Shown in pieces: positions 3,198-46,544 of a stretch of DNA of 64,000 nucleotides. The notes under the pieces were generated by a model. The model did no database searches. It was not told where the DNA came from and saw only the letters and a list, made by a program, of their open reading frames with translations. Position numbers and translations under genes: made by a program. This stretch comes from Clostridium sp. (GTDB lineage Bacteria; Bacillota; Clostridia; Clostridiales; Clostridiaceae). The stretch lies in contig JARLHR010000241.1 of the NCBI GenBank assembly GCA_031292145.1, positions 106,601 to 170,600 on the forward strand. The letters run 5' to 3'. Position 1 is the stretch's first letter. Each line of letters starts with the position of its first letter.

Positions 3198-4877
3198 TTA
3201 GTTTGCTAGAACTATTTCAAATTCTAAAAAATAGAATTTGAAATAGTTAATTATTACAGTAAATATGACTAAAATCACATTGAATAAATAGTCAATGCCA
3301 CTTTCAAGGACCTGTTTTAACAGTTTCTTGAAATTATATGCTGCGATTTTAAATCCAACCCATAATTTTGAGCGCAGTAATCCACGGATAGGCATCGTAT
3401 CTATTTTATACCTTCTTCTCAATACTGATGGAATTCCTTCTATACCTGCTCTTTTATTTGCATTTTCTATATATTCATGTGTTTTCATTTTATCTCTTTG
3501 AGTAGCTGTATTATAAGCTTTTTCACTAAATCTTATGGTATTAAATTTCTTTGATGCTTTTTTGGGACACTGTGAATTTAAAGGACAATTTTCACAAGTA
3601 TCTGGATTAAACTTAGCAGTATAAGACTTTGAACTATAATAAGACTCTACAGGTTCGACTCCGTTAGGACAGCTACTGATTATATTTTTTTCATTATCCA
3701 CAATGAATTTTGCATAGCTTAGTTTATCGGTTGATGCTTTTCTACCAACAAGTTCACTTGGTATTATTTCAACCCCTTGTTTTAAAGCATTTTGAGCTTT
3801 TTCTTGCTCATAATATGCACCATCAACTAGTAGTTTACAATTTGAATCGTTCTTTTTTGAAACCAAATTAGAAATAACATCATCAGCAAATTTTGAGTCA
3901 CTGTGAATATTCTGCTTAAGATCATATCCTGTTATAACACTGTTTTCATCGTTAAATGATTCTTGTATATTCACAACATAACCTATGTTATCTCCATATT
4001 TTTTCCTGTATGTTGCATCTTTATCAGTTGGATTTTGTAAACTAGTTGAAGATATATTTTTTGAATCTTTAGGTACTAAATTATTGGCACCATCTTCTAC
4101 CGTTTGGTCTTCGATAAGTCTTTTTAAAAGTTGAAATTCTTCTGTTGAAGTAACAATCTCTCCAGCTTTTAAAGAAATATCGTATAATAATTTGGATTGG
4201 TTAATTAAAATTGAAAGTTTTGAATCAGCCTGTAAATCTCTAGTTCTATATATAGTGTCATTTTTATGTCCTTTTTCAAGGTACGGTTTAAGTTCTTCAT
4301 CTATAAAAACTGGATTGATTTTATTTATAATCTTGATAAGTCTGATGTTCACAGAATATACTAATTCAATTCTACTTAATTTTCTACATGATGAACTAAC
4401 CATTAAAGAGTCTACCCTAACTTTTTTATTATCAACATCTAAATATTTAGCGATGCTTTCAGCTAAAGCTTCAACTTCTGCTTTTATCAAATCTTCGCCA
4501 GTGGAATTTTCATATTCAACTAGCTTATTTCTGAAATTTGTTAGAGTATTTATCGATACTGGTTGGGTTTCATAATTAGTTGTATTTAAAGCATATTGAT
4601 ATCTTATATCGAAATGGATAGAGCCTATAAGTTCTTCATCAGTCTGCTGAAATATTTCTTTTATTATTAGTAATCCAATAATGACATTAATAGGTGAATT
4701 AGGTCTTGAGGCTTTATCACTATATAAAACCGAAAAACGTTCCTCATTTATTTTTGAAAAGATATACTCGTTAAATGCTTTAGCCCAACTTTTACTCAAA
4801 ATATCTTGCAGATATTTTGGCATTTGGTTTATTGGATCAAATAATGAAGTTTGTTGACGGTTATTTTTACAAAACAT
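3198..4877 (-). CDS. IS1182 family transposase
   Basis: This 559-residue transposase starts at MFCKNNRQQ, preceded by GAGGCG. The N-terminal DUF772-type region includes FSVLYSDKASRPNSPINVII. The DDE region includes LLVDGAYYEQEKAQNAL (catalytic Asp) and a cysteine-rich block CENCPLNSQCP near residue 450. GIPSVLRRRYKIDTMPIRGL near the C-terminus is typical of IS1182/IS1272 transposases. The frame is complete and undisrupted, so the element could be active. The final codons overlap a hairpin (3210-3248). Confidence 0.92.
   Translation of the reverse strand: MFCKNNRQQTSLFDPINQMPKYLQDILSKSWAKAFNEYIFSKINEERFSVLYSDKASRPNSPINVIIGLLIIKEIFQQTDEELIGSIHFDIRYQYALNTTNYETQPVSINTLTNFRNKLVEYENSTGEDLIKAEVEALAESIAKYLDVDNKKVRVDSLMVSSSCRKLSRIELVYSVNIRLIKIINKINPVFIDEELKPYLEKGHKNDTIYRTRDLQADSKLSILINQSKLLYDISLKAGEIVTSTEEFQLLKRLIEDQTVEDGANNLVPKDSKNISSTSLQNPTDKDATYRKKYGDNIGYVVNIQESFNDENSVITGYDLKQNIHSDSKFADDVISNLVSKKNDSNCKLLVDGAYYEQEKAQNALKQGVEIIPSELVGRKASTDKLSYAKFIVDNEKNIISSCPNGVEPVESYYSSKSYTAKFNPDTCENCPLNSQCPKKASKKFNTIRFSEKAYNTATQRDKMKTHEYIENANKRAGIEGIPSVLRRRYKIDTMPIRGLLRSKLWVGFKIAAYNFKKLLKQVLESGIDYLFNVILVIFTVIINYFKFYFLEFEIVLAN
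3210..3248 (-). terminator. Hairpin overlapping the 3' end of the transposase gene
   Basis: AACTATTTCAAATTCTA pairs perfectly with its inverted copy (17-base arms, 5-base loop). It encodes the last residues of the transposase and would also insulate it from outside transcription, a common IS arrangement. Confidence 0.6.
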
Positions 4878-5013
4878 AGTAATTCGCCTCATTCGTTTAA
4901 ATTTATAATGCTATTATATCATGAAATTCTAATTGGATAATATTTGTCAGCTTTTTGTAGGCTAATCATTCATATCAAAATAAAAATTTATTTTTCTATC
5001 TTTATACAACTCA

Positions 5014-34832: not shown

Positions 34833-34903
34833 CTTAAAATACGCCTCCTCGATATTTTGGTAAACATAAATTTTTCAATTATAATTTTAACTTTTAATCT
34901 TTA

Positions 34904-35061
34904 GGCACATGAAAATAAATAACAAGTCCGATTTGCTGTGGATATTTTTCATCAGGCAAGAAGGTAAATTGGCCTCATAGTGGGCCTATTAGGCCAATTT
35001 TCCGCCGTAGCATGATGGAAAATAGGCCAGCAAATGGACTTGTTATTTTTTTGATTGTGCC
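34904..35061. repeat. Family B element, copy 1 (158 bp, TTA flanks)
   Basis: The ends GGCACATGAAAATAAATAAC and its near inverted copy (GTTATTT...GATTGTGCC) bracket a folded core with ATTTTTCATCAGGCAAGAAG, CATAGTGGGCCTATTA and GCATGATGGAAAATAGG. Internal stems are ATTTGCTG/CAGCAAAT and AATTGGCC/GGCCAATT. TTA flanks both ends (34901-34903, 35062-35064), and the right TTA is the stop codon of the lyase-like gene on the minus strand. Confidence 0.85.
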
Positions 35062-36771
35062 TTATGTTATTTCATAATAAAATTTGAATTCCATTATAAC
35101 TTCCTTATTTTCCTTATGAGTTACTAATCCAAGCCTATATATACTTACCACTTCATTGTAGTGATTAGTTACTTCTTCTTTTTCTATAAAGTAATCAAAC
35201 ATGTTACAATCATATGCTAAAATGATATTTCCTTTTCTTCCCCTCCAAATAATCTCTCCATTTTTAATTCCTTCTGGTTTTATATAGCTTATAAATCCTT
35301 CATTTACTTGAGCAATATCTTCACTTAAAACCGAATCTTCTATAGTCAGTATAGATTTATGATTTTCAAACTTTGCTTTTCTATAAAAATTCTTTATTTT
35401 TACTGAAGGATAAACTGGAGATAATTCTAAATTAAATTCTATATAATCACTATTAATCTCATGCTTAATAATGGTACTTCTTATGTCTCCTTCTTCTTGC
35501 TCACAATTATTTACAAATGGAACAGAATGCCAATATGATCTTGTATGATTATAAGTATATCTCTCGCATCCAAAGTATCCTTTTGTATATGCTCCTGCAC
35601 CTAAATCTGTTAAAATTATTTCTCCATCTATAGCTGCAACAAAGCTTCCAACATCATTATGATTATGAGGTTCATTGTTGCTGCCTCCCTTTATAGCAAA
35701 AAATAACTTATCCTTCCTATGAACCGCCCATTTAGCATCTTGAAAGTAACACGAATCATTTGTTAATTCCTTGTTTAATATTTCTTCGCTTGTCCACCAT
35801 AAATTTCTACTTACATGTGCCCATCTATAACAATGATCAAAATCAAAAGAACTAATTTCTTTTATCAATGGCACCTTTATGTTGTACTTGTTATACAAAT
35901 ATGACAATAATCCTGATGGTAAAGTCATATTAGGAGGCACATCAGAAAAAGGTAAAAATACTTTTTCTGAAATTTGAATACTTTGCGGAAAATTAGCTAT
36001 AGCTGTAATTTTATCATTGTGTTCCTGATTATCTTCTGGATACATTTCATTTTTCAAAGCCTTATAATACATATAATATCCAAATCCATAAGACCAGTAT
36101 CCTATCCCCTCTAAAGTTGCTCCATCATCACCAAATCCGCTAATATAACATTCTAATGCTTTTTCAACCTTATTTAATACTAATTTTTGCTTTTCTTCCT
36201 TTTCTATCAGCAGAGCTGTTATTCCAATACATCCACCACAAACTGCACTCCAATTATGAGTAGCTGTTTCCCAATCCCACTTTTTATTTATAAAAGGATT
36301 TATAACTCTGTCCTCAATTTGTTTCTTAATATTATTGAATAATAATAAATCTATCTTGTCTTTATGAATTATAATAATTTCACTTAAAGTTTGTGCTGTT
36401 TCTGCTGAAAAAAGATCTACTACCTTTGCTGGCTCACTTCCAAAATCATCTTCCCCATATGACAAATGTGCTGCTAAACACCAGCTAAATTCATTAGATA
36501 TTGTCCATAATAGTTCTTGAAAATAATCTATAGCTTCTTTTGAACTGTTCCATTGCAGATATAACCCTAAGGCAGTTAATTGTTTTCTTCTTTCAAAATA
36601 TACCGTTTCAAACTCCTTTCGACTTCCATTCTTACAAAAATTCACATAAGAACTATAAGGTATTTGTGGTATATTTTCCTTTAGTATAACCTTTACATAA
36701 TCCTCAATTTGATTCATCAATGGTGATCTAACCGTATTCCATCCTATTGTCTTATGAAAATATTCTTTCAT
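35062..36771 (-). CDS. Heparinase II/III-like polysaccharide lyase
   Basis: This 569-residue protein has an N-terminal alpha-toroid of about 330 residues (WETATHNWSAVCGGCIGITA) and a C-terminal beta-sandwich of the heparinase II/III type (NEPHNHNDVGSFVAAIDGE, then LTDLGAGAYTKGYFGCERY). HNHND supplies the family's catalytic or metal-binding histidine region. Such enzymes cleave uronate-containing polysaccharides by beta-elimination. No signal peptide is visible, suggesting action on imported oligosaccharides. GGGGGAG precedes the ATG. It is paired with GH88 downstream. Its stop codon lies inside the flank duplication of repeat B1. Confidence 0.85.
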   Translation of the reverse strand: MKEYFHKTIGWNTVRSPLMNQIEDYVKVILKENIPQIPYSSYVNFCKNGSRKEFETVYFERRKQLTALGLYLQWNSSKEAIDYFQELLWTISNEFSWCLAAHLSYGEDDFGSEPAKVVDLFSAETAQTLSEIIIIHKDKIDLLLFNNIKKQIEDRVINPFINKKWDWETATHNWSAVCGGCIGITALLIEKEEKQKLVLNKVEKALECYISGFGDDGATLEGIGYWSYGFGYYMYYKALKNEMYPEDNQEHNDKITAIANFPQSIQISEKVFLPFSDVPPNMTLPSGLLSYLYNKYNIKVPLIKEISSFDFDHCYRWAHVSRNLWWTSEEILNKELTNDSCYFQDAKWAVHRKDKLFFAIKGGSNNEPHNHNDVGSFVAAIDGEIILTDLGAGAYTKGYFGCERYTYNHTRSYWHSVPFVNNCEQEEGDIRSTIIKHEINSDYIEFNLELSPVYPSVKIKNFYRKAKFENHKSILTIEDSVLSEDIAQVNEGFISYIKPEGIKNGEIIWRGRKGNIILAYDCNMFDYFIEKEEVTNHYNEVVSIYRLGLVTHKENKEVIMEFKFYYEIT

Positions 36772-36967
36772 GTTTAAATATTTCTCCCCCGTAAATCTTT
36801 AGGAATATATAAGTCTTTAACTTGTATAACCATTTTCATTTAATATCTCTACCATCTCATTAGCTATTAATTGACATTGTATTTTTTTATATTTGTTCAT
36901 ACTATTAAAACTCCGATACTATATGATTTTAATTCAAATGTTAAATTTTTTCAATTTTTATTGAATT

Positions 36968-37006
36968 TAGCCTTATCAAATATATGAAATATACTTGATA
37001 AGGCTA
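36968..37006 (-). terminator. Terminator of the GH51-DUF6171 operon
   Basis: TAGCCTTATCAA (36968-36979) pairs with TTGATAAGGCTA (36995-37006), 9 bases past the DUF6171 stop. The rest of the gap to 36772 holds no gene I can support. Confidence 0.75.
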
Positions 37007-37014
37007 CAGCTAAT

Positions 37015-37269
37015 CTACCAAAATTTTTCTATATTAGGACAATAATTTTTCTTAACAGCTGCCCGCATTTCAACAAAGCAACCACAAATTTTGCACATAC
37101 CATTAATTAAATTATTGCACTCTCTACATATATCCAGTCTTTTTTTATATTCTTCATCTTCTGTTTTAATGTGCTTATCTAAATTTTCAATATATTCTTG
37201 TAAATGCTTATATTCTTTTTCTTCAAATAGTTCATCTAATAAACATCGTCTACAAAATCTTTGACTCAT
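37015..37269 (-). CDS. DUF6171 cysteine-rich small protein
   Basis: This 84-residue protein has eight cysteines in zinc-ribbon-like spacing (C6 and C9; C48 and C51; C59, C62 and C64; C77), separated by a charged helix (residues 15-45). It resembles the DUF6171 family known from clostridia. Its ATG is one base after the GH51 stop (TAATATG), so translation is coupled. Function unknown: metal binding is likely, and a nucleic-acid or protein-binding role is possible. Confidence 0.75.
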   Translation of the reverse strand: MSQRFCRRCLLDELFEEKEYKHLQEYIENLDKHIKTEDEEYKKRLDICRECNNLINGMCKICGCFVEMRAAVKKNYCPNIEKFW

Positions 37270-37270
37270 A

Positions 37271-38749
37271 TTATTCTATAACAAAGTGAATTACACTACA
37301 TTTAGGAATCTTAAAGTCAATTCCTTTATTTGTAATTGTGAATTCTTTAAATTCTTCTGGTTTTACTACTTCTGGTTCATCAAAAGTATTATAAGCACCC
37401 ATTTCGCTTGTTAAAATAGTAGCTTTCACAGCTTTAATTTCTTTTTCTACGAAGATTCCTTCAATATCATAAGCATCAGAAATAGATAAGTTATTTATGG
37501 TAACATTAATTCTGCCTTCTTTATCTACAGATACTGATTCATGTAAATTAGGAACTTTATTTTCTTCTTCAATTCCAATATTTTCAGTATCTATATGACT
37601 TTCAACAAGCGTTGCATCTTGGTGGTTTTTATACATATTAAATACATGATAAGTTGGAGTTAATACCATTTTTTCTCCTTCTGTTAAAATAACAGATTGA
37701 AGTACATTTACAATTTGGGCAATATTGGCCATCTTAACTCTATCACAATTTTTATTGAAGATATTTAAGTTAATACCTGCAACTAATGCATCTCTCATAG
37801 TGTTTTGTTGATATAAGAATCCTGGGTTAGTTCCAACTTCAACATCAAACCAAGTTCCCCATTCATCAACTATTAATCCAACTTTCTTTTCTGGGTCATA
37901 TTGATTCATTATAGCACTGTGTCTATAAATTAATTCTTCCATTTTTAATGTCTTCTTAAGAGTTGTATACCAATCTTTTTCAGTAAATACAGTTGCAGCT
38001 CCTTTTTCTTCCCAGCAAGGTCCTGTAACTGTATAATAATGAAGAGATAATCCATCCATAAAGTTACCTGCAACCTTCATTACCTCCTCAGTCCAATTAT
38101 AATCATCTGAATTTGATCCACAAGCTATTTTATAAAGTTTATTATCAGCATAATTTCTGCAGAACGTTTGATATCTTCTATATTCATTAGCGTAATATTC
38201 TGGTGTCATATTACCACCACAACCCCAGTTTTCATTACCAACACCAAAATATTTTACTTTCCAAGCTTCTTCATGACCATTCTTCTTTCTAATGTCAGCC
38301 ATTGGAGAAACTCCTTCAAATGTTAGGTATTCAACCCATTCAGACATTTCTTGAACAGTTCCACTTCCTACATTCCCATTAATGTATGGTTCACATTCAA
38401 GTTGTCTACACAATTCCATAAATTCGTGAGTACCAAAACTATTATCCTCTACTACTCCACCCCAGTTAGTATTAATCATTTTTTTACGATTTTCATTTTC
38501 TCCAATTCCATCTTTCCAATGATATTCATCAGCAAAGCATCCACCTGGCCAACGAAGCACTGGTATCTTTATTTCTTTTAATGCTTGTACTACATCGTTT
38601 CTCATGCCATTAGTGTTAGGAATTTTTGAGTTTTCACCTACATATAATCCTTCATATATACATCTTCCTAAATGTTCTGAAAAATGCCCATAGATTTCCT
38701 TATTAATTTTATCTTTTTTATTATGCACATTCACAAATAACTTGCTCAT
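37271..38749 (-). CDS. GH51 alpha-L-arabinofuranosidase (AbfA type)
   Basis: This 492-residue enzyme is the length of intracellular bacterial AbfA. The acid/base E173 is in GVGNENWG and the nucleophile E296 in LIVDEWGTW (E175/E294 in Geobacillus AbfA). [19 protein letters not shown] near residue 65 is the substrate loop. There is no signal peptide. It releases arabinose from arabinan or arabinogalactan oligosaccharides in the cytoplasm. AAGGGAGG precedes the ATG, and a strong promoter lies upstream at 38811-38839. Confidence 0.93.
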
Positions 38750-38810
38750 AATATCCTCCCTTTATTTAAGTAAATACTTTAATATTTAAGTTTTTATTTA
38801 ATTTATTCAT

Positions 38811-38839
38811 AATATAACATTTTACTTTACTACAGTCAA
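38811..38839 (-). promoter_or_regulatory. Consensus-like promoter of the GH51 gene
   Basis: On the minus strand TTGACT (complement of 38834-38839), a 17-base spacer and TATATT (complement of 38811-38816) lie about 60 bases before the GH51 start codon. No clear operator overlaps it. Confidence 0.65.
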
Positions 38840-38987
38840 ACGTTTTCTTAAAAATTGTAAAAGGTTCCAAATGATAATTTTTTCTCTATAATTTTAATAT
38901 TAATTTTTGCTTTTCTTTAAACTTTAGGTATATAATTACTATTAAATATAAGCAGAATATTTCGCTTAAAACATAGGAGGATTTTCA

Positions 38988-39632
38988 ATGGATCGTACCA
39001 TATCCCTGCGTGAAAGACTAGAAAATAAAACTTTTAAAGAAAAATTAGATTATATATGGACTTACTATAAACTTCATATATTAGGCACTTTAATACTTAT
39101 CTTTTTTGTAGGTTCTTACATATCTGCTCAAATAAATAGGCAAGATGTATATTGTAATATCACATATGTTGGTAATACAATTAATGTCGAAGACTTAACT
39201 CCTGCAAAAGACAAACTTAATGATATCTTGTTACATAATAATAAAAAGTTGGTTATTAATTTTGATTCTATATTTACTGATGATAAGTCAAATGCAGGTC
39301 TCGCTATGACAGAAAAATTACAGGTAAATATTGCAGCGCAGCAAATAGATATTGCAATTGTAAATAAGGAGTTTTTTAATCAAAACTTTTCTTCTGATAT
39401 GTTTTTAAATTTAGAATCACTTAATGGATTTTCTGAACTTCCAATATCAACCCATGAATTGATAAAAAATACTGATAGCAATGGTATTAACGGAACTTAT
39501 GGCATATCTGTTAAGAATTTAAATCTTTTAAATAATATACAATTTGCTAATGACGATGATATTCTTGTAGTAATTTCTAATACCAAACATAGTGATGCTG
39601 TAGTTAATGTATTAAAAACATTCTTAGCTTAA
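38988..39632 (+). CDS. Membrane-anchored protein of unknown function
   Basis: This 214-residue protein sits behind ATAGGAGG. A cytoplasmic stretch (RERLENKTFKEKLDYIWTYY) precedes one transmembrane helix (residues about 28-48). A soluble extracellular domain of about 160 residues follows, rich in alpha/beta alternation. The TFKEKLDYIWTYYKLHI pattern recurs in clostridial hypothetical proteins, and the extracellular half resembles substrate-binding-like folds in its layout only. It is divergent from GH51 and upstream of the ArsR gene. I cannot assign a function. Confidence 0.7.
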   Translation: MDRTISLRERLENKTFKEKLDYIWTYYKLHILGTLILIFFVGSYISAQINRQDVYCNITYVGNTINVEDLTPAKDKLNDILLHNNKKLVINFDSIFTDDKSNAGLAMTEKLQVNIAAQQIDIAIVNKEFFNQNFSSDMFLNLESLNGFSELPISTHELIKNTDSNGINGTYGISVKNLNLLNNIQFANDDDILVVISNTKHSDAVVNVLKTFLA

Positions 39633-39675
39633 AAAAGCTTAACTATATTTTCTGCTATGATACATTTATTATTTA

Positions 39676-39834
39676 GGCACATGAAAATAAATAACAAGTC
39701 CAAAGTTGCCATGAATATTTTTCATCAGGCAAGAAGGTGAATTGCCCTCATAGCGGGCCTATTAGGTAAATTTGCCGACGTAGGATGATGGAAAATAGTC
39801 TGGCAAATGGACTTGTTATTTATTTGATTGTGCC
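39676..39834. repeat. Family B element, copy 2 (159 bp, TTA flanks)
   Basis: It has the same ends and core as copy 1 (GGCACATGAAAATAAATAAC, ATTTTTCATCAGGCAAGAAG, CATAGCGGGCCTATTA, GGATGATGGAAAATAG). Internal stems are changed on both sides: TTGCCA/TGGCAA, and AATTGCCC against GGTAAATT. TTA flanks both ends (39673-39675, 39835-39837). It ends about 20 bases before the ArsR start, so it lies in that gene's leader. Confidence 0.85.
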
Positions 39835-39855
39835 TTACATGGAAAGGATAAATTT

Positions 39856-40779
39856 ATGCTACATTTTGAATCAATGAAAGATGCTAGTGAAATGTTTAAA
39901 GCGCTAAGCGCCCCTATGCGTCTAAGAATAATGGAAATTTTATATGACGATGGTGATAAAAACTTAAATGACTTAGCTAATATGCTTGATTTAACTAACA
40001 GTGCCATCTCACTTCATATAAAAAAGTTAGAGGAAGTTGGTTTAATAGAAATTCATACAATGTCTGGAAAACGTGGCTCTATGAAGATTTGTAAGCCACT
40101 TCATGATATGATGATAATTGACTTACTTCCTAAAAAAATAGATATTTCTTCATATCAAGATGAAATTGGAATAGGTTATTATTCTAATTGTCAAATAACA
40201 GCTACTTGTGGTATATCAACTAAAGATAATATTATTGGTGAATTTGATGATCCGCGTTATTTTTTATTTCCAGAGCACTTCGGAGCATCTGTTCTTTGGT
40301 TTACTACTGGATTTATAGAGTATAATTTGCCAAATCGTTTAACTGCTGGGCAAAAATTAACAGAGCTTCAACTTTCTTTTGAAATTTCATCTGAAAGTCC
40401 TGGTTACAATGAAGATTATCCATCTGATATTCATTTTTCTATTAATAATATTGACTTGGGATATTGGGTAAGTCCTGGAGATTTTGGTGCTAGACGTGGA
40501 CGATTGACTCCTGCTTGGTGGCCTGAAATGTGTAATCAATATGGAAGACTTAAGACTTTGTCAATTAACAAAAATGGAACATTTATTGATGGTGGATATC
40601 AAATTTCTGAAACTACAATTGATGACCTTAACTTAGATTACACCAGCACTATTTCCTTCCGTTTCTCTGTTCCTAAGGACACCAAAAATGTTGGCGGCTT
40701 CACCTTGTTTGGAGAAGGATTTGGAGATTATAATCAATCTATTAAAATGCAGGCCTTCTATGAAATGAAAAAATCATAA
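39856..40779 (+). CDS. ArsR family regulator with a large C-terminal domain
   Basis: This 307-residue protein has GGAAAGG upstream. Residues 8-85 form an ArsR winged helix (MFKALSAPMRLRIMEIL, then DLTNSAISLHIKKLEEVGLI). Ordinary ArsR proteins are about 100-120 residues and bind metals. Here the remaining 200 residues form a separate aromatic-rich, beta-type domain (PGDFGARRGRLTPAWWPEM) with no CxC metal site. Such fused regulators sit next to glycosidase genes, so a carbohydrate-type ligand is plausible. It faces the GH31 gene; the promoter overlaps or follows repeat B2. Confidence 0.8.
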   Translation: MLHFESMKDASEMFKALSAPMRLRIMEILYDDGDKNLNDLANMLDLTNSAISLHIKKLEEVGLIEIHTMSGKRGSMKICKPLHDMMIIDLLPKKIDISSYQDEIGIGYYSNCQITATCGISTKDNIIGEFDDPRYFLFPEHFGASVLWFTTGFIEYNLPNRLTAGQKLTELQLSFEISSESPGYNEDYPSDIHFSINNIDLGYWVSPGDFGARRGRLTPAWWPEMCNQYGRLKTLSINKNGTFIDGGYQISETTIDDLNLDYTSTISFRFSVPKDTKNVGGFTLFGEGFGDYNQSIKMQAFYEMKKS

Positions 40780-40789
40780 CTATTCAATA

Positions 40790-40809
40790 TAAGGCACAAT
40801 CAAATAAAA
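40790..40809. repeat. Solo family B end
   Basis: TAAGGCACAATCAAATAAAA is the inverted right end of the family B elements, including the TAA flank, with no partner end nearby. It is probably the remnant of a lost copy. Confidence 0.6.
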
Positions 40810-40810
40810 T

Positions 40811-40846
40811 ATGTAGTATATTTTAAATGTGAAATATATACTACAT
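40811..40846. terminator. Terminator between ArsR and GH31 genes
   Basis: ATGTAGTATAT pairs with ATATACTACAT, followed by GTTTTAC on the plus strand. The flanking genes converge. Confidence 0.65.
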
Positions 40847-40880
40847 GTTTTACTAGCGTTAATATTTAATTCTTATCACT

Positions 40881-42890
40881 TTAAATTTTACTAATAAGAT
40901 ATTCTTGCTTTCCATCCCTTAAAAATACTGGAATAACTTCTATAGGCGCTTCCGTTGTAATTGTTTGACCACCATTATATATCTTTCCAGTATGTGCGTC
41001 AGTCCAATCAGAGCCTTTAGGAAGATATACATCTCTTGATGTAGCCCCTTCATATATTATTGGAGCAATTAATATATCTGCTCCATATAAATATTCATCA
41101 TTAATATCCCAAACATTTTCGTCATTTGGGAATTCAAAGAAAAGTGGCCTCATAATTGGGGCACCATTTTCATGAGCTTCTTTCATTAATTCTCTCGTAT
41201 AATCTCTTAACGTTTCACGCAATTCCATATATTTAACTAATATCTTATAAGCTTCATCTCCAAAACTCCATACCTCATTATTTCCACCAGTAAATAATGC
41301 ATTGCTGCCATCTTTTCTAATAACTTCAGCACCTGGTGCACGATCTCCATGTAATCTCATTACTGGACAAAACGCCCCCCATTGAAACCATCTGATTAAT
41401 AATTCTCGGAATTTAGGATCATCAGGATTTCCTCCCGAAAAACCGCCAATATCTGTTGTCCACCAAGGAATTCCTGCAATACCCATATGTAAGCCGGCAA
41501 CAATTTGCTTTCTGAAATCCTCATAAGAAGAATGAATATCTCCTGACCATACTAATGCACCATACCTTTGGCTTCCTGCCCATGCACATCGAACTAAATT
41601 TACAATATTTTCTTGGCCTTCTTCCTTCATTCCTTCATAAAAGGTTTTTGAATAATGTTGTGGATAAACATTCCCTATTTGAGCATTTGGTCCTAATGCA
41701 TATCTATAGTTTTCAAAATCATATACATCATATTCTGGTTCAGCTTCATCTAGCCAAAATATCTTAATTCCATAATCATAGTAGTTCTTTTTACATTTTG
41801 ACCATACATACTTTCTTGCTTTAGGATTTGTTGCATCATAAAAAATACTAGCTGGGAGCCAACCCATCATTGCAACATCAACCCCCTTTTCAACTTTAAT
41901 CAAGTATCCTTTTTGCTGCATTTCTTCATAATTTTCGCTATGACGATCAATTTGCGGCCATACAGATACCATTAATTCAATCCCTAATTCTTTTAATTCA
42001 TCTACCATTGCTTTTGGATCTGGAAAAAATTCTTCTTCAAATCTAAAATCCCCTTGTTTGGGCCAATGGAAAAAATCAATTACAATCACATCTATTGGAA
42101 GCTTTCTTTTCTTATATTCTCTTGCTACATTTAACAGCTGCTCTTGATTATAATATCTCAATTTACATTGCCAGAAGCCTAGACCATATTCAGGCATCAT
42201 TGGAACTGTACCTACAGCTTTTCCATAAGCCATTTCTATTTCTGCTGGTGAGTCTCCTGCTGTAATCCAATAATCTAATTGTTTAGTACTTTCAGCAAAC
42301 CATTCTGTTATGTTTTTAGCAAAATTAACTTTTCCAATAGCTGGATTATGCCATAAGAAGCCATATCCTTTACTTGAAAATAAAAATGGAACACTAGCTT
42401 GAGAATTACGATGAGCTAATTCTAAAGTTGAACCTTTCAAATCAAAGGTTTCTTGTTGATATTGACCCATTCCATATATTTTTTCATTGTCATTTCCTTC
42501 AAAAGAAACTATTAACTTGTGATCTCCTCCAATAATAGGCTTAAATGCTCTTGCTTGAAGTTTTAAAGCTCCACCACGGCTAATTTCTTTTAATAATAAT
42601 TCACCTTTTTCATTATAAAAGGAAATCCTTCCTGGAGTTTCCCATCTTGAATGATTTATAATTGCAGTTATTTTACCATTTTCAATTGTGGCAGTTTGTG
42701 TTTCCTTATCAATTTCTATTTTAGCTTTTACATCACTGCTGTTAGGTAATAATGCGTAATCAGTATCTATTATTTCTCCCATCATTCTAGATCTAACACG
42801 TAAACTGTTTTCTCCCCATGCTTCAATTTGTAAAGTTTCACCGTTATTTTCAAAAATCAACTTACCCTCTTCTATGAAATAAAAATCCAT
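40881..42890 (-). CDS. GH31 family alpha-glycosidase (alpha-xylosidase/alpha-glucosidase type)
   Basis: This 669-residue enzyme has an N-terminal beta-sandwich (1-220), a TIM barrel with the nucleophile D381 in IFWLDEAEPEYD and the acid/base D451 in LVWSGDIHSSY, and C-terminal sandwich domains. GIAGIPWWTTDIGGFSGG is a conserved subsite block. It is cytoplasmic, with no signal peptide. GH31 covers alpha-glucosidases, alpha-xylosidases and some alpha-galactosidases, so the exact sugar is open. GAAGGGAG precedes the ATG. Confidence 0.9.
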   Translation of the reverse strand: MDFYFIEEGKLIFENNGETLQIEAWGENSLRVRSRMMGEIIDTDYALLPNSSDVKAKIEIDKETQTATIENGKITAIINHSRWETPGRISFYNEKGELLLKEISRGGALKLQARAFKPIIGGDHKLIVSFEGNDNEKIYGMGQYQQETFDLKGSTLELAHRNSQASVPFLFSSKGYGFLWHNPAIGKVNFAKNITEWFAESTKQLDYWITAGDSPAEIEMAYGKAVGTVPMMPEYGLGFWQCKLRYYNQEQLLNVAREYKKRKLPIDVIVIDFFHWPKQGDFRFEEEFFPDPKAMVDELKELGIELMVSVWPQIDRHSENYEEMQQKGYLIKVEKGVDVAMMGWLPASIFYDATNPKARKYVWSKCKKNYYDYGIKIFWLDEAEPEYDVYDFENYRYALGPNAQIGNVYPQHYSKTFYEGMKEEGQENIVNLVRCAWAGSQRYGALVWSGDIHSSYEDFRKQIVAGLHMGIAGIPWWTTDIGGFSGGNPDDPKFRELLIRWFQWGAFCPVMRLHGDRAPGAEVIRKDGSNALFTGGNNEVWSFGDEAYKILVKYMELRETLRDYTRELMKEAHENGAPIMRPLFFEFPNDENVWDINDEYLYGADILIAPIIYEGATSRDVYLPKGSDWTDAHTGKIYNGGQTITTEAPIEVIPVFLRDGKQEYLISKI

Positions 42891-43035
42891 TCCAAATTAA
42901 TCTCCCTTCAAAATATATTATTTATATATAATTATAGTGCCTTGTAAACTGTATGATATAATTATAATTGCATAATACTATTAAAATAATGTCATGAAAT
43001 TATTTTAAATATGTTTAACATAAGGAGAAATGAAA

Positions 43036-43944
43036 ATGGCTATCACTAATGAATTAAATAATTCTAATAATCTAAAAGAAATAATCCCACATGGAAATCT
43101 TTTATTTAATCTAGCTGTACACTTAACGGAGCATAAAATTGCAACAGACATAATGTTATATTCACATTGGCATGAAGAATTAGAAATATTATATATAATC
43201 GAAGGAAGCATGTTGCTCCAAATTGATCTACAATCATTTATTGTGAATAAAGGAGATATTATTATAATTCCACCAAATCTAATCCATGGAGCATCACGCT
43301 GCAACAATTCTCCTTGTGAATTTTATGCAATAGTATTTCATCCGTCATTGATCTCTAGCGTTTTTAATGATACTATTCAGCAAAACTATTTAGATCCTTT
43401 TTTTATAAAAACAAGCAAGAACTTTCACTACATTAATAAAAAATCTGAAGAATATGATAACACACTCCAATATGTAACTTCGATAATTGAAACATATTCT
43501 TTAAAATCTTTTGGTTTTGAACTTCTTATTAAAGCTTACATTCTGCAAATGTTTTATAACATAATTCAATTCCATTCAATTGAAAATAATGAATTGAAAA
43601 AGGATGACGTTTTAACCACTGTTCGAATCAAAAAGATTCTTGCTTTTCTAGATGATAATTATCAACAACCATTTTCTTTATCAGATTGGGCCTTAAGTAT
43701 TTCTTTAAGTAAAGAACAATTTTGTAGAATTTTTAAAAAGCATTTATTAAATACGCCTATTGAATATTTAATAAATTATCGAATCTCCAAAGCAGCAGAT
43801 TTGCTTACACACTCTAATCTTCCAATTATAGATATTGCATTTGAAACTGGTTTTGAAAGTGCAAATTATTTTACCATAACATTTAAAAATAAAATGCATG
43901 TCACTCCTAGAGAATATAGAAATAATAATACAAAACTGCAGTAA
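43036..43944 (+). CDS. AraC family regulator
   Basis: This 302-residue protein starts at MAITNELNNSNN. The ATG two codons upstream is too close to AAGGAG, and the chosen one is 8 bases away. The cupin domain has YSHWHEELEILYIIEGSMLL. The double HTH has WALSISLSKEQFCRIFKKHL and IAFETGFESANYFTITFKNK. It is divergent from GH31, which it probably activates. The gene tail forms part of a terminator. Confidence 0.88.
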   Translation: MAITNELNNSNNLKEIIPHGNLLFNLAVHLTEHKIATDIMLYSHWHEELEILYIIEGSMLLQIDLQSFIVNKGDIIIIPPNLIHGASRCNNSPCEFYAIVFHPSLISSVFNDTIQQNYLDPFFIKTSKNFHYINKKSEEYDNTLQYVTSIIETYSLKSFGFELLIKAYILQMFYNIIQFHSIENNELKKDDVLTTVRIKKILAFLDDNYQQPFSLSDWALSISLSKEQFCRIFKKHLLNTPIEYLINYRISKAADLLTHSNLPIIDIAFETGFESANYFTITFKNKMHVTPREYRNNNTKLQ

Positions 43945-43975
43945 TTAAGCTTTTTAATCTGACCTGCAGTTTTTT
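43932..43975. terminator. Terminator between two converging AraC genes
   Basis: AAAACTGCAG pairs with CTGCAGTTTTTT. The left arm covers the last codons and stop of the upstream regulator. Confidence 0.72.
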
Positions 43976-44002
43976 CGTTTTTTTATTTTTATACATGCGC
44001 AG

Positions 44003-44845
44003 TTAATTTCTTTCGTTTCGAAATTGATATGGTGTAAGTTGTGTATTTTTCTTAAATGACTTACTAAAATAGTTTCCACAGGAAAAACCACACTTTAAAG
44101 CAATTTCATTTATAGATAGTTCTGTATTTTGAAGCAGATGCATTGCATGCTGCATCCTAATGTTTGTAAGATATTTTATTGGATTCATCCCAGTTTCCTT
44201 AGTAAATTCTCTAGTAAAATGGCTCAGTGAAATTCCAAATTCTTCTGCCAAGATATTAACACCCTCAAGTTTAGAAAATTCACTTTCCATTTTTTCAATA
44301 GCAAGTCTTGTTCTAGTGGAATAATTCTCTTGATTATATGCCACTTTACTACACAATAAACATAAAAAGTGGAACACCATTTCACTTCCTACAAAAGGCT
44401 GAATAAACATCCCGTTGCTTAAATTTTCATGAAACTTTAATAAATATTGTATAACACTGCTACTTTCTGAAAGTGTAATAATCTTTCCCATCTTACGTAT
44501 TATCTTATCATAATAGGGCTTTACAACAGATCCTTCAAAATGAATATATAAAATTTGCCATCCATCTTCATCTAAATCATCAGGACAATAATATTTTTCA
44601 TCGTCAGGAATTTCAACAAAAAATGCCTGCCCCGGTTCAATTCGATATACTTGATTATTTGTTTCAAATATTCCATGGCCCTTTAATGTATATTGAAACA
44701 AATATCCTTTTATATCTCTAGAATTATTATCAAAATAATAATCCGGAGTCCTTCGTTTTTCTATCCCAATATCTTTTAGTTCAAATGGTGGATTAGGAAT
44801 TTCATCAAAAAAAACAAAACCGTAAGTTCCAAATTCATACGACAT
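44003..44845 (-). CDS. AraC family regulator
   Basis: This 280-residue protein starts at the ATG after GGGTGAATTTTTG; a TTG one codon earlier is possible. It has the cupin part FLFQYTLKGHGIFETNNQ-like (KGYLFQYTLKGHGIFETN) and the C-terminal double HTH (LAEEFGISLSHFTREFTKET and IALKCGFSCGNYFSKSFKKN). It is divergent from the GH27-like gene across 170 bases and probably controls it. Confidence 0.88.
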   Translation of the reverse strand: MSYEFGTYGFVFFDEIPNPPFELKDIGIEKRRTPDYYFDNNSRDIKGYLFQYTLKGHGIFETNNQVYRIEPGQAFFVEIPDDEKYYCPDDLDEDGWQILYIHFEGSVVKPYYDKIIRKMGKIITLSESSSVIQYLLKFHENLSNGMFIQPFVGSEMVFHFLCLLCSKVAYNQENYSTRTRLAIEKMESEFSKLEGVNILAEEFGISLSHFTREFTKETGMNPIKYLTNIRMQHAMHLLQNTELSINEIALKCGFSCGNYFSKSFKKNTQLTPYQFRNERN

Positions 44846-45016
44846 CAAAAATTCACCCTTTATATCAATTTATCACTCTTGTATCACATCTAAATACTGT
44901 AATATACTTAATATAAAGTATCATATCGCTATAATTTTGTACAGTATAACCACATCAAAAAACTGCTTTAAATTTATTAATTTATAAAAATTTTTATTAA
45001 GAAGGGATTTTATAAT

Positions 45017-46324
45017 ATGTTATTAAAAAACACATTTGCAAAAACTCCACCAATGGGATGGAACAGTTATGATTATTATGATACTACCGTAAATGAAGCC
45101 GAGGTTAGAGCCAATGCTGAATATATGGCAAAACACTTGAAACCTCATGGATATCACTATATAGTTGTAGATATCCAATGGTCTGATCCTGATGCTGGTA
45201 CTGACAGAGAAAATTGTCAATACATAAATTTTAGTCATTTTAATATAGATGAATATTCCAGACAGCTTCCTGCTGAAAACCGCTTCCCCACTTCAAAAAA
45301 TAGTGCTGGCTTCCGTCCCCTTGCAGATTATATCCACAGCTTAGGCTTAAAATTTGGTATTCATATTATGAGAGGTATTCCAAGGTATGCTGCACACATG
45401 CATTTGAAAATTAAAGGTTCTGATGTAACTGCTGATAAAATTGCAAATCCATATTCTGTATCTAAGTGGAATCCAGATATGTATGGTGTTGATTATCAAA
45501 AACCTGGCGCTCAAGCATACTACAATTCAATTTTTGAATTATATGCTGAGTGGGGTGTTGATTTTGTAAAGGTTGATGATATATGCAATACTAATTTCTA
45601 TATTGACAATCCATATTCAGCTGAAAAAGAAATTGAAATGATTCATAAGGCTATTTTAAATTCCGGACGAGATATGGTTTTAAGTCTTTCACCTGGTCCT
45701 GCTGTAATAGAAAAAGCTTGGCACTTAGAAAAATATGCAAATATGTGGCGTATTACCGATGATTTCTGGGATAACTGGGATTTACTTAAGAATATGTTTG
45801 AACGCTGTGAAGTTTGGCAAAATCATGTGTCAATAGGCTGCTATCCTGACTGTGATATGATTCCAGTTGGCTACCTAGGTAACGGCTTTGGTGAGGAGCG
45901 TTATACTAACTTTACCCTTGATGAGCAAATTACCTTAATGACACTTTGGTGTATTTTCCGTTCTCCTTTAATGATTGGAGCTGAATTACCAAAACTGGAT
46001 GAGCAAACTTTAGAACTATTAACAAATGATGAAGTGCTTCATTTAGTAAGTAATTCATATGGCGCAATTCAAATAGAACGGGATGATAACCATGCTATAT
46101 GGCTCAGCAAAGACAATAATGATAATAGCAGTTATGTAGCTATGTTTAATTTATCTGATGAAAGCCAAAATTTAAGTATTTCTTTAGATGAACTTGAAAT
46201 TAATTCTAAGGTATCTGTACGTGATTTATGGAATCATAAGGATTTAGCTACAACTGATACTATAATCACTACCAAGGTATCTGCACATGGTGCTGTAATG
46301 TATAAATTGAGTAATATTTTATAA
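45017..46324 (+). CDS. GH27-like glycosidase with divergent substrate pocket
   Basis: This 435-residue protein has AAGGGA upstream. The GH27 barrel start TPPMGWNSYDYY, the nucleophile D187 in VDFVKVDDIC and the acid/base D248/D249 in WRITDDFWDNW are present, with FRSPLMIGAELP near 325 typical of the clan. The usual galactose-reading pair of aspartates in DDCW is replaced by VDIQWSDP (51-58), and the family's cysteine-bearing loop after GIY is replaced by GIHIMRGIPRYAAH. It is therefore GH27-related, but alpha-galactosidase activity should not be assumed. It is intracellular, with no signal peptide. Confidence 0.82.
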   Translation: MLLKNTFAKTPPMGWNSYDYYDTTVNEAEVRANAEYMAKHLKPHGYHYIVVDIQWSDPDAGTDRENCQYINFSHFNIDEYSRQLPAENRFPTSKNSAGFRPLADYIHSLGLKFGIHIMRGIPRYAAHMHLKIKGSDVTADKIANPYSVSKWNPDMYGVDYQKPGAQAYYNSIFELYAEWGVDFVKVDDICNTNFYIDNPYSAEKEIEMIHKAILNSGRDMVLSLSPGPAVIEKAWHLEKYANMWRITDDFWDNWDLLKNMFERCEVWQNHVSIGCYPDCDMIPVGYLGNGFGEERYTNFTLDEQITLMTLWCIFRSPLMIGAELPKLDEQTLELLTNDEVLHLVSNSYGAIQIERDDNHAIWLSKDNNDNSSYVAMFNLSDESQNLSISLDELEINSKVSVRDLWNHKDLATTDTIITTKVSAHGAVMYKLSNIL

Positions 46325-46347
46325 ATCTTTCTTCCAAAAACAGATAA

Positions 46348-46506
46348 GGCACATCAAAATAAATAACAAGTCCAAAGCTGCCACGGATATTTTTCATCAG
46401 GCAAGGAAGTAAAATGCCATCATAGCGGGCCTATTATGGTATTTTGCTGACGAAGGATGATGGAAAATAGGCTGGCAGATGGACTTGTTATTTATTTGAT
46501 TGTGCC
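46348..46506. repeat. Family B element, copy 3 (159 bp, TAA flanks)
   Basis: Same ends and core. Stems are now CTGCCA/TGGCAG and AAATGCCAT/ATGGTATTT. The flanks are TAA on both sides (46345-46347, 46507-46509) where copies 1, 2 and 4 have TTA. It lies between GH27 and the convergent GH51. Confidence 0.85.
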
Positions 46507-46544
46507 TAATATTATATAGATATATTTACAATAAATTAATTTGC

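Follow-up and report, generated by a model that had tools for sequence, protein, structure and literature searches.

Background

Intergenic, multicopy repeats of about 150-170 bp that combine features of mobile elements with a common fold are on record from the Bacillus cereus group as bcr1, alongside bcr2 and bcr3 (PMC2267715, PMC3446304, PMC6542083). A repeat that shares these properties, as far as the published descriptions extend, occurs in four copies of about 160 bp in a 64,000-nucleotide stretch of a Clostridium sp. genome (assembly GCA_031292145.1, contig JARLHR010000241.1, positions 106,601 to 170,600; hereafter the window), and is referred to here as the family-B repeat. Likened by descriptions alone, the two differ in that bcr mobility is tied to repeats of a TTTAT motif and that of the family-B repeat to duplication of TWA. 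ERIC/IRU, RUP and the other miniature inverted-repeat transposable elements (MITEs) of the Delihas review are likewise described as short palindromic repeats with foldable transcripts, ERIC is reported there to affect mRNA stability, and RUP to target TA (PMC2229807); on these descriptions the family-B repeat is set apart from RUP by its TWA target, its covarying subfamilies and its inserted modules. Clostridial stem-loop repeats are represented by Clop-1, Clot-1 and Clot-3 of C. perfringens and C. tetani, which at 74-93 bp are described as differing from the family-B repeat in both species and size (PMC2267715). No paper describing the family-B repeat in Clostridium or C. beijerinckii was found by title or abstract in the open-access literature, and a word search of a C. 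beijerinckii RNA-seq paper found no mention of repeats (PMC3271303).

A preliminary description of the window, made from the sequence alone, had placed the repeat between positions 34904 and 46506, reported constant blocks separated by stems that change in both arms at once, and called this unusual for a plain MITE, which we judge fair. The usual view of bacterial MITEs is that their ends are all they require. The analysis presented here suggests that the family-B repeat may well be a structured MITE whose interior fold must persist for its copies to spread.

Results

The interior of the family-B repeat is a rod consisting of stems P2-P5, an asymmetric internal loop between P3 and P4 with strands of the GRCAAGRA and GACGYAG types, and a capped apex, ATAG-YGGG(C)-CTAT, that is variable in distant copies; P1 comprises the terminal inverted repeat and a subterminal stem. 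Of 97 copies from the same genome (own copies), 94 form a better fold on the annotated strand than on the complementary one, as do 139 of 145 mixed copies. Copy 2 of the window folds at -71.6 kcal/mol (z = -11 against dinucleotide shuffles, a value to be read in the knowledge that any palindrome folds), and its parts are as follows.

39675..39702, + strand: left arm of P1 (fold), paired with 39808-39835
39808..39835, + strand: right arm of P1 (fold)
39716..39727, + strand: 5' arm of the covarying stem P3 (fold, covariation), paired with 39786-39797
39728..39735, + strand: 5' strand of the internal loop, GRCAAGRA type; its 3' strand, GACGYAG type, is 39777-39785
39736..39743, + strand: 5' arm of the inner covarying stem P4 (fold, covariation), paired with 39769-39776
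39750..39762, + strand: apical hairpin ATAG-CGGGC-CTAT (motif search, fold)

Among 47 own copies, 98.0% of pair cells hold standard pairs, compared with 89.7% after shuffling and 39-45% in slid structures. Cells changed on both sides number 213 (66.8 shuffled, 12-23 slid) and both-sided change occurs at 23 of 53 pairs, which bears out the reported both-armed change. These 47 copies, with those of the window included, were joined to 98 from relatives in a 145-copy alignment made by sequence only (mean identity 0.74), in which 116 both-sided, pair-keeping changes could be mapped to single branches, compared with 2-5 for slid partners. The ten strongest covarying column pairs of this alignment all lie in the fold, as do 20 of the top 46. 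A home-made, R-scape-like test, in which substitutions were re-placed randomly on a FastTree tree and column pairs were scored by G with average product correction, found 3 of 10153 pairs reaching E<0.05 singly in the 145 copies and 2 of 5671 in 97 own copies (120 simple own copies thinned by flanks), and a further run again found 2, every one of them in the fold. Covariation beyond the terminal repeats, on which the preliminary description stood or fell, is therefore above its controls; we read the small number of individually significant pairs as a sign that most of the variation is concentrated in few deep lineages. Runs with a single null replicate (4 to 6 pairs, one outside the fold) and a top-70 list were not used for significance. 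Of 87 copies, the 39 that exceed 165 bp were dropped from alignment A1, which was collected in its entirety with the apical pattern, so that apical conservation there is ascertained, while A3 leaves out 4 of 106 distinct places (by length or identity) together with reverse-strand duplicates. Locus L080 is left out of A1, and thus of the 145 copies, and is present among the 97 own copies.

The timing of change differs between lineages that left descendants and settled insertions. In core pairs of the 145 copies, the ratio of double to single changes is 0.54 for internal branches and 0.21 for terminal ones (Fisher p 0.0003); it is 0.56 and 0.21 in the 98 copies of relatives (p 0.0005), and 0.48 and 0.11 in the 97 own copies (p 0.0008), a contrast rather than a clean split because terminal branches contain some pre-insertion time. 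Terminal-to-internal rate ratios are 3.0-3.6 for P1, 2.3-2.9 for the internal loop, 1.4-1.7 for other unpaired columns, 1.5-1.7 for core paired columns, and 2.2, 1.7 and 3.4 for the apical region; in P1 and the internal loop, slow change along internal branches is made up for along terminal ones. Taken together, the rates and the double-change contrast indicate a constraint that applies mainly to lineages still spreading and weakens once a copy has inserted. A comparison of G-U with A-C in the core, 42:14 on internal branches before the slid-pair control, was not relied on as a test of strand, as that control took away most of the signal.

The family-B repeat is a MITE-type non-autonomous DNA transposon. 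Its ends are inverted (GGCACA..TGTGCC), with terminal pairs 1-7 (AGGCACA/TGTGCCT) standard in 98.8% of cells. Among 267 fetched records, which include repeats, 227 distinct full copies were counted, and 196 of these have the same 3 bp on either side (108 TTA, 86 TAA, 1 CTA, 1 TTG), as do 78 of the 87 own copies collected first (45 TTA, 32 TAA, 1 CTA). When the flanks are joined, they align across the junction to uninterrupted sequence in other genomes; five such alignments were inspected, since the 61 that span a junction contain self-matches and repeated sequence. At four of the five junctions the empty site has one TWA in place of the two at the filled site, and at the fifth it has CTA; in one example, L394 against L099, identity is 93% over 201 bp. 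No ORF (open reading frame) of at least 100 aa lies inside any of the window copies, which are only ~160 bp long. Comparison of the window region in 20 relatives found, besides the repeat, one gene region and short pieces, and no empty site. IS200/IS605-type single-strand elements insert without target duplication, and the clear 3-bp duplication of the family-B repeat rules against that identity.

The window copies are listed below; three lie in the range first given for the repeat, and the fourth, which carries the GCAGATT/AATCTGC stem assigned to that range, lies outside it.

34903..35062, + strand: copy 1, full length, 169.3 bits (R1 model), flanked by TTA (34901-34903) and TTA (35062-35064)
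39675..39835, + strand: copy 2, full length, 175.9 bits, flanked by TTA and TTA
46347..46507, + strand: copy 3, full length, 173.4 bits, flanked by TAA and TAA
59633..59793, - strand: copy 4, full length, 161.7 bits, left end degenerate (TGAACA instead of GGCACA)

The minus-strand ORF 35062-36771 ends at the target duplication of copy 1: its stop codon, in complement, is the right-hand TTA. Constant block CATCAGGCAAG is exact in all four copies, although 12 matches at two mismatches, with 12.1 expected, make it no proof by itself. Blocks CATAGCGGGCCTATTA and ATGATGGAAAATAG are present in all four with at most one mismatch; for the former 0.2 matches are expected when up to 3 mismatches are allowed, and for the latter up to 2 mismatches give 5 matches where 2.5 are expected. 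The outer stems, read from the sequence, are perfectly paired (TTTGCTG/CAGCAAA, TTGCCA/TGGCAA, CTGCCA/TGGCAG, TGCCA/TGGCA). The inner stem is perfect in copy 1, holds one G-T in copy 3 and pairs as quoted in copy 4; that of copy 2, AATTGCC/GGTAAATT, is interrupted in the fold by a 2x2 internal loop and is not the clean stem it was thought to be. A T-run follows the P1 stem of the window copies. A transposase gene of IS1182-like make-up, with DUF772, DDE_Tnp_1_6 and DDE_Tnp_1, occupies positions 3198-4892 (- strand) of the window, and locus L438, fetched around it, has no matching GGCACA..TGTGCC ends.

Some copies carry further modules. M1, a hairpin of about 41 bp, sits where P2 meets P3, with 23 distinct contexts in the 3' arm and 19, reversed, in the 5' arm; 5 more contexts lack a core nearby. 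Several copies (e.g. L003, L037, L066) hold it in both arms, which yields a longer rod (-118 kcal/mol for the L037 region). M2, a structured module of about 70 nt with 38 pattern matches in the own genome, takes the place of the 3' internal-loop strand in some family-B copies. It is also a domain of a larger, apparently structured repeat of about 330-430 nt (boundaries by eye) with outer stem CTAGACTT/AAGTCTAG; M2 and the larger element are found at loci L036, L008, L019, L020, L029, L072, L082, L085, L088, L357, L358, L359 and L361, and neither has a credible Rfam match. Joined flanks at L149/L014, L320 and L068 match other repeats, among them the L358/L361 loci with the larger element, and to judge from the sequences one of the two repeats may insert into the other. 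Genome G066 (loci L180, L193, L204 and L402-L416) resembles a graveyard, in which a single full copy stands beside 17 that have lost the core and measure 51-78 bp; the breakpoints of these mostly differ by eye, and the best pairs are alike at 0.78-0.84.

The own genome (6.34 Mb, 282 contigs) holds at least 150 matches to the covariance model, a few contig-end pieces of which are perhaps one copy counted twice, and 166 matches to the apical motif at up to 2 mismatches (0 in a backwards control). A covariance-model search of 68 genomes of the same genus found matches in 23, or about one third, the own genome counted. Among the matches listed are those in Clostridium beijerinckii HUN142, C. puniceum, C. 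chromiireducens, C. uliginosum, C. neonatale, Clostridium sp. LS and two metagenome-assembled genomes. Phages and plasmids searched with one copy, and IMG/VR searched with the apical motif, gave no match to the repeat. In the complete genome G012, 80 of 107 copies are oriented against replication and the main gene direction (13+/37- in the first half, 43+/14- in the second, p=3e-7; the GC skew changes sign near 3.0 Mb). Orientation relative to replication is not significant in G029 (51 copies), nor among the matches listed for G013 and G022; by local GC skew the split is 35:20 for the own genome and 57:41 for the remaining loci. Two riboswitch-like sequences were encountered in loci fetched around family-B copies, an M-box riboswitch at L025:610-776 (-; 141.8 bits) and a glycine-riboswitch-like match at L189:1733-1920 (+), which at 80.4 bits is under its gathering score.

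Discussion

We give about an even chance to the reading that the family-B repeat is a structured MITE whose interior fold must persist for copies to spread. Under this reading, the ends GGCACA..TGTGCC insert at TWA and duplicate it, as the flanks and empty sites show, and continued spreading would require the rod-shaped interior, with P2-P5, the asymmetric internal loop and the capped apex, as the covariation statistics support. The same statistics suggest that lineages which leave descendants keep their pairing through double changes and alter the internal loop slowly, and that single insertions decay. The likeliest reason would be that the mobilising machinery reads a folded single strand of the core as part of its substrate, the strand being extruded in replication or transposition and P1 serving as the double-stranded end. 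Some of the double changes probably come from template copying between the arms of the palindrome, of which there is one clear case, and selection would set which of them persist. Of the two functions first proposed for the fold, the better fit is the hairpin that a transposition enzyme would recognise, and searches of PF01609 and PF13359 found no such enzyme. A more specific proposal, that the machinery recognises the folded core strand itself, as fork-extruded DNA or an RNA copy, in an element with DDE-like ends, mobility dependent on a covarying hairpin and modules exchanged with the larger repeat that shares M2, we hold to be rather unlikely.

Several observations weigh against dependence on the fold. 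Classical DDE transposases require ends only. PIF/Harbinger and IS5-group elements duplicate 3 bp of TWA/TNA, a type of duplication like that of the family-B repeat, and no match to PF13359 was found in the own genome. In searches limited to PF01609 and PF13359, none of 30 fetched PF01609 transposase loci (of 63 places in 7 genomes) carries GGCACA..TGTGCC ends. The short copies of G066 might be an amplified form, with core-less copies moving, and equal-length groups of matches in G012, known by length alone (three of 87 bp on C1 at 2592857-2592943, 5305384-5305470 and 4393634-4393720, plus eight of 147-148 bp), may be subfamilies that were shortened or altered and then amplified. Constraint on the apical loop is evident in the own genome (3.4, in part an ascertainment effect of the search pattern) and hardly in relatives (1.7), terminal branches hold 61 of the 116 double changes, and the strand-specific excess of G-U, set beside the slid control, is weak (p 0.10, 0.035, 0.32). 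In the other direction, a search for an amplified core-less form yielded 11 short derivatives that passed the strict pattern, none of them clustered.

A rather unlikely alternative is that the covariation is mostly mutational, with template switching or hairpin-templated repair bringing the arms of an otherwise ordinary MITE into agreement and no selection on the fold required. Template switching is described as a route by which hairpins can be made and maintained (PMC8794818), M1 is present as reverse complements in both arms, and the 5' internal-loop strand of L080 is the reverse complement of its 3' strand at 22 of 23 bases. Arm-to-arm copying thus occurs, with L080 as the one clear case, and may be the source of some double changes; the initial statement that compensatory change means selection was too strong. 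Copying would, however, erase the internal loop, yet a near-perfect arm bridging it is found in none of the 145 aligned copies (L080 not among them), where the longest arm measures 18 bp (P4-apex or P3 edge) compared with 23 in L080. A neighbouring double on the same branch accompanies only 8 of the 116 double changes, and doubles are relatively depleted on terminal branches, though correction during transposition could mimic that depletion.

Exaptation by the host as a functional structured RNA, with copies in untranslated regions serving as terminators or in stability or regulation, roles that have been suggested for ERIC or bcr elements, appears improbable. Copies do lie near stop codons (median 53 bp, compared with 135 bp to starts), a T-run follows P1, and the annotated strand is the better folder. 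However, between tandem neighbour genes the orientation of copies is 45 same and 46 opposite, which argues against host gene regulation by orientation, and at 3' ends it is equally unbiased (66 same, 67 opposite). Pairing is less well kept on terminal branches, and core-deleted relics persist. A known Rfam family was also rejected: Rfam 15 gave no match in the window at gathering score, and at E<=1 over 7 loci the sole match on the element was a miRNA family at 31.6 of 144 bits, which is not credible. Promoter-like matches over the region of copies 1-3 show no excess (63, with 73 by chance), and a terminator scan confined to loops of 3-8 flags none of these copies. Among 126 copies that have an ORF to either side, none is placed within an ORF, a count that genes broken by insertion would escape. 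A host regulatory RNA is not supported by these results, and selection on spreading is more likely than selection on such an RNA.

SINE-like movement (after short interspersed nuclear elements) by way of a folded RNA copy that a reverse transcriptase would recognise is very improbable: the folding strand asymmetry, the weak G-U excess on internal branches and the link of fold constraint to spreading would suit it, yet core-deleted copies retain both ends, and palindromic ends with a 3-bp TWA duplication point to a DDE-type DNA transposase.

Conclusions

Covariation in mobile repeats, taken alone, is no demonstration of regulatory RNA. The copies of the family-B repeat across the genus suggest that its interior fold is best kept in spreading lineages and relaxes afterwards. 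This one system bears on whether transposition machinery can read a folded strand within an inverted-repeat element, and on how much of the stem covariation in palindromic DNA is due to template switching and how much to selection.

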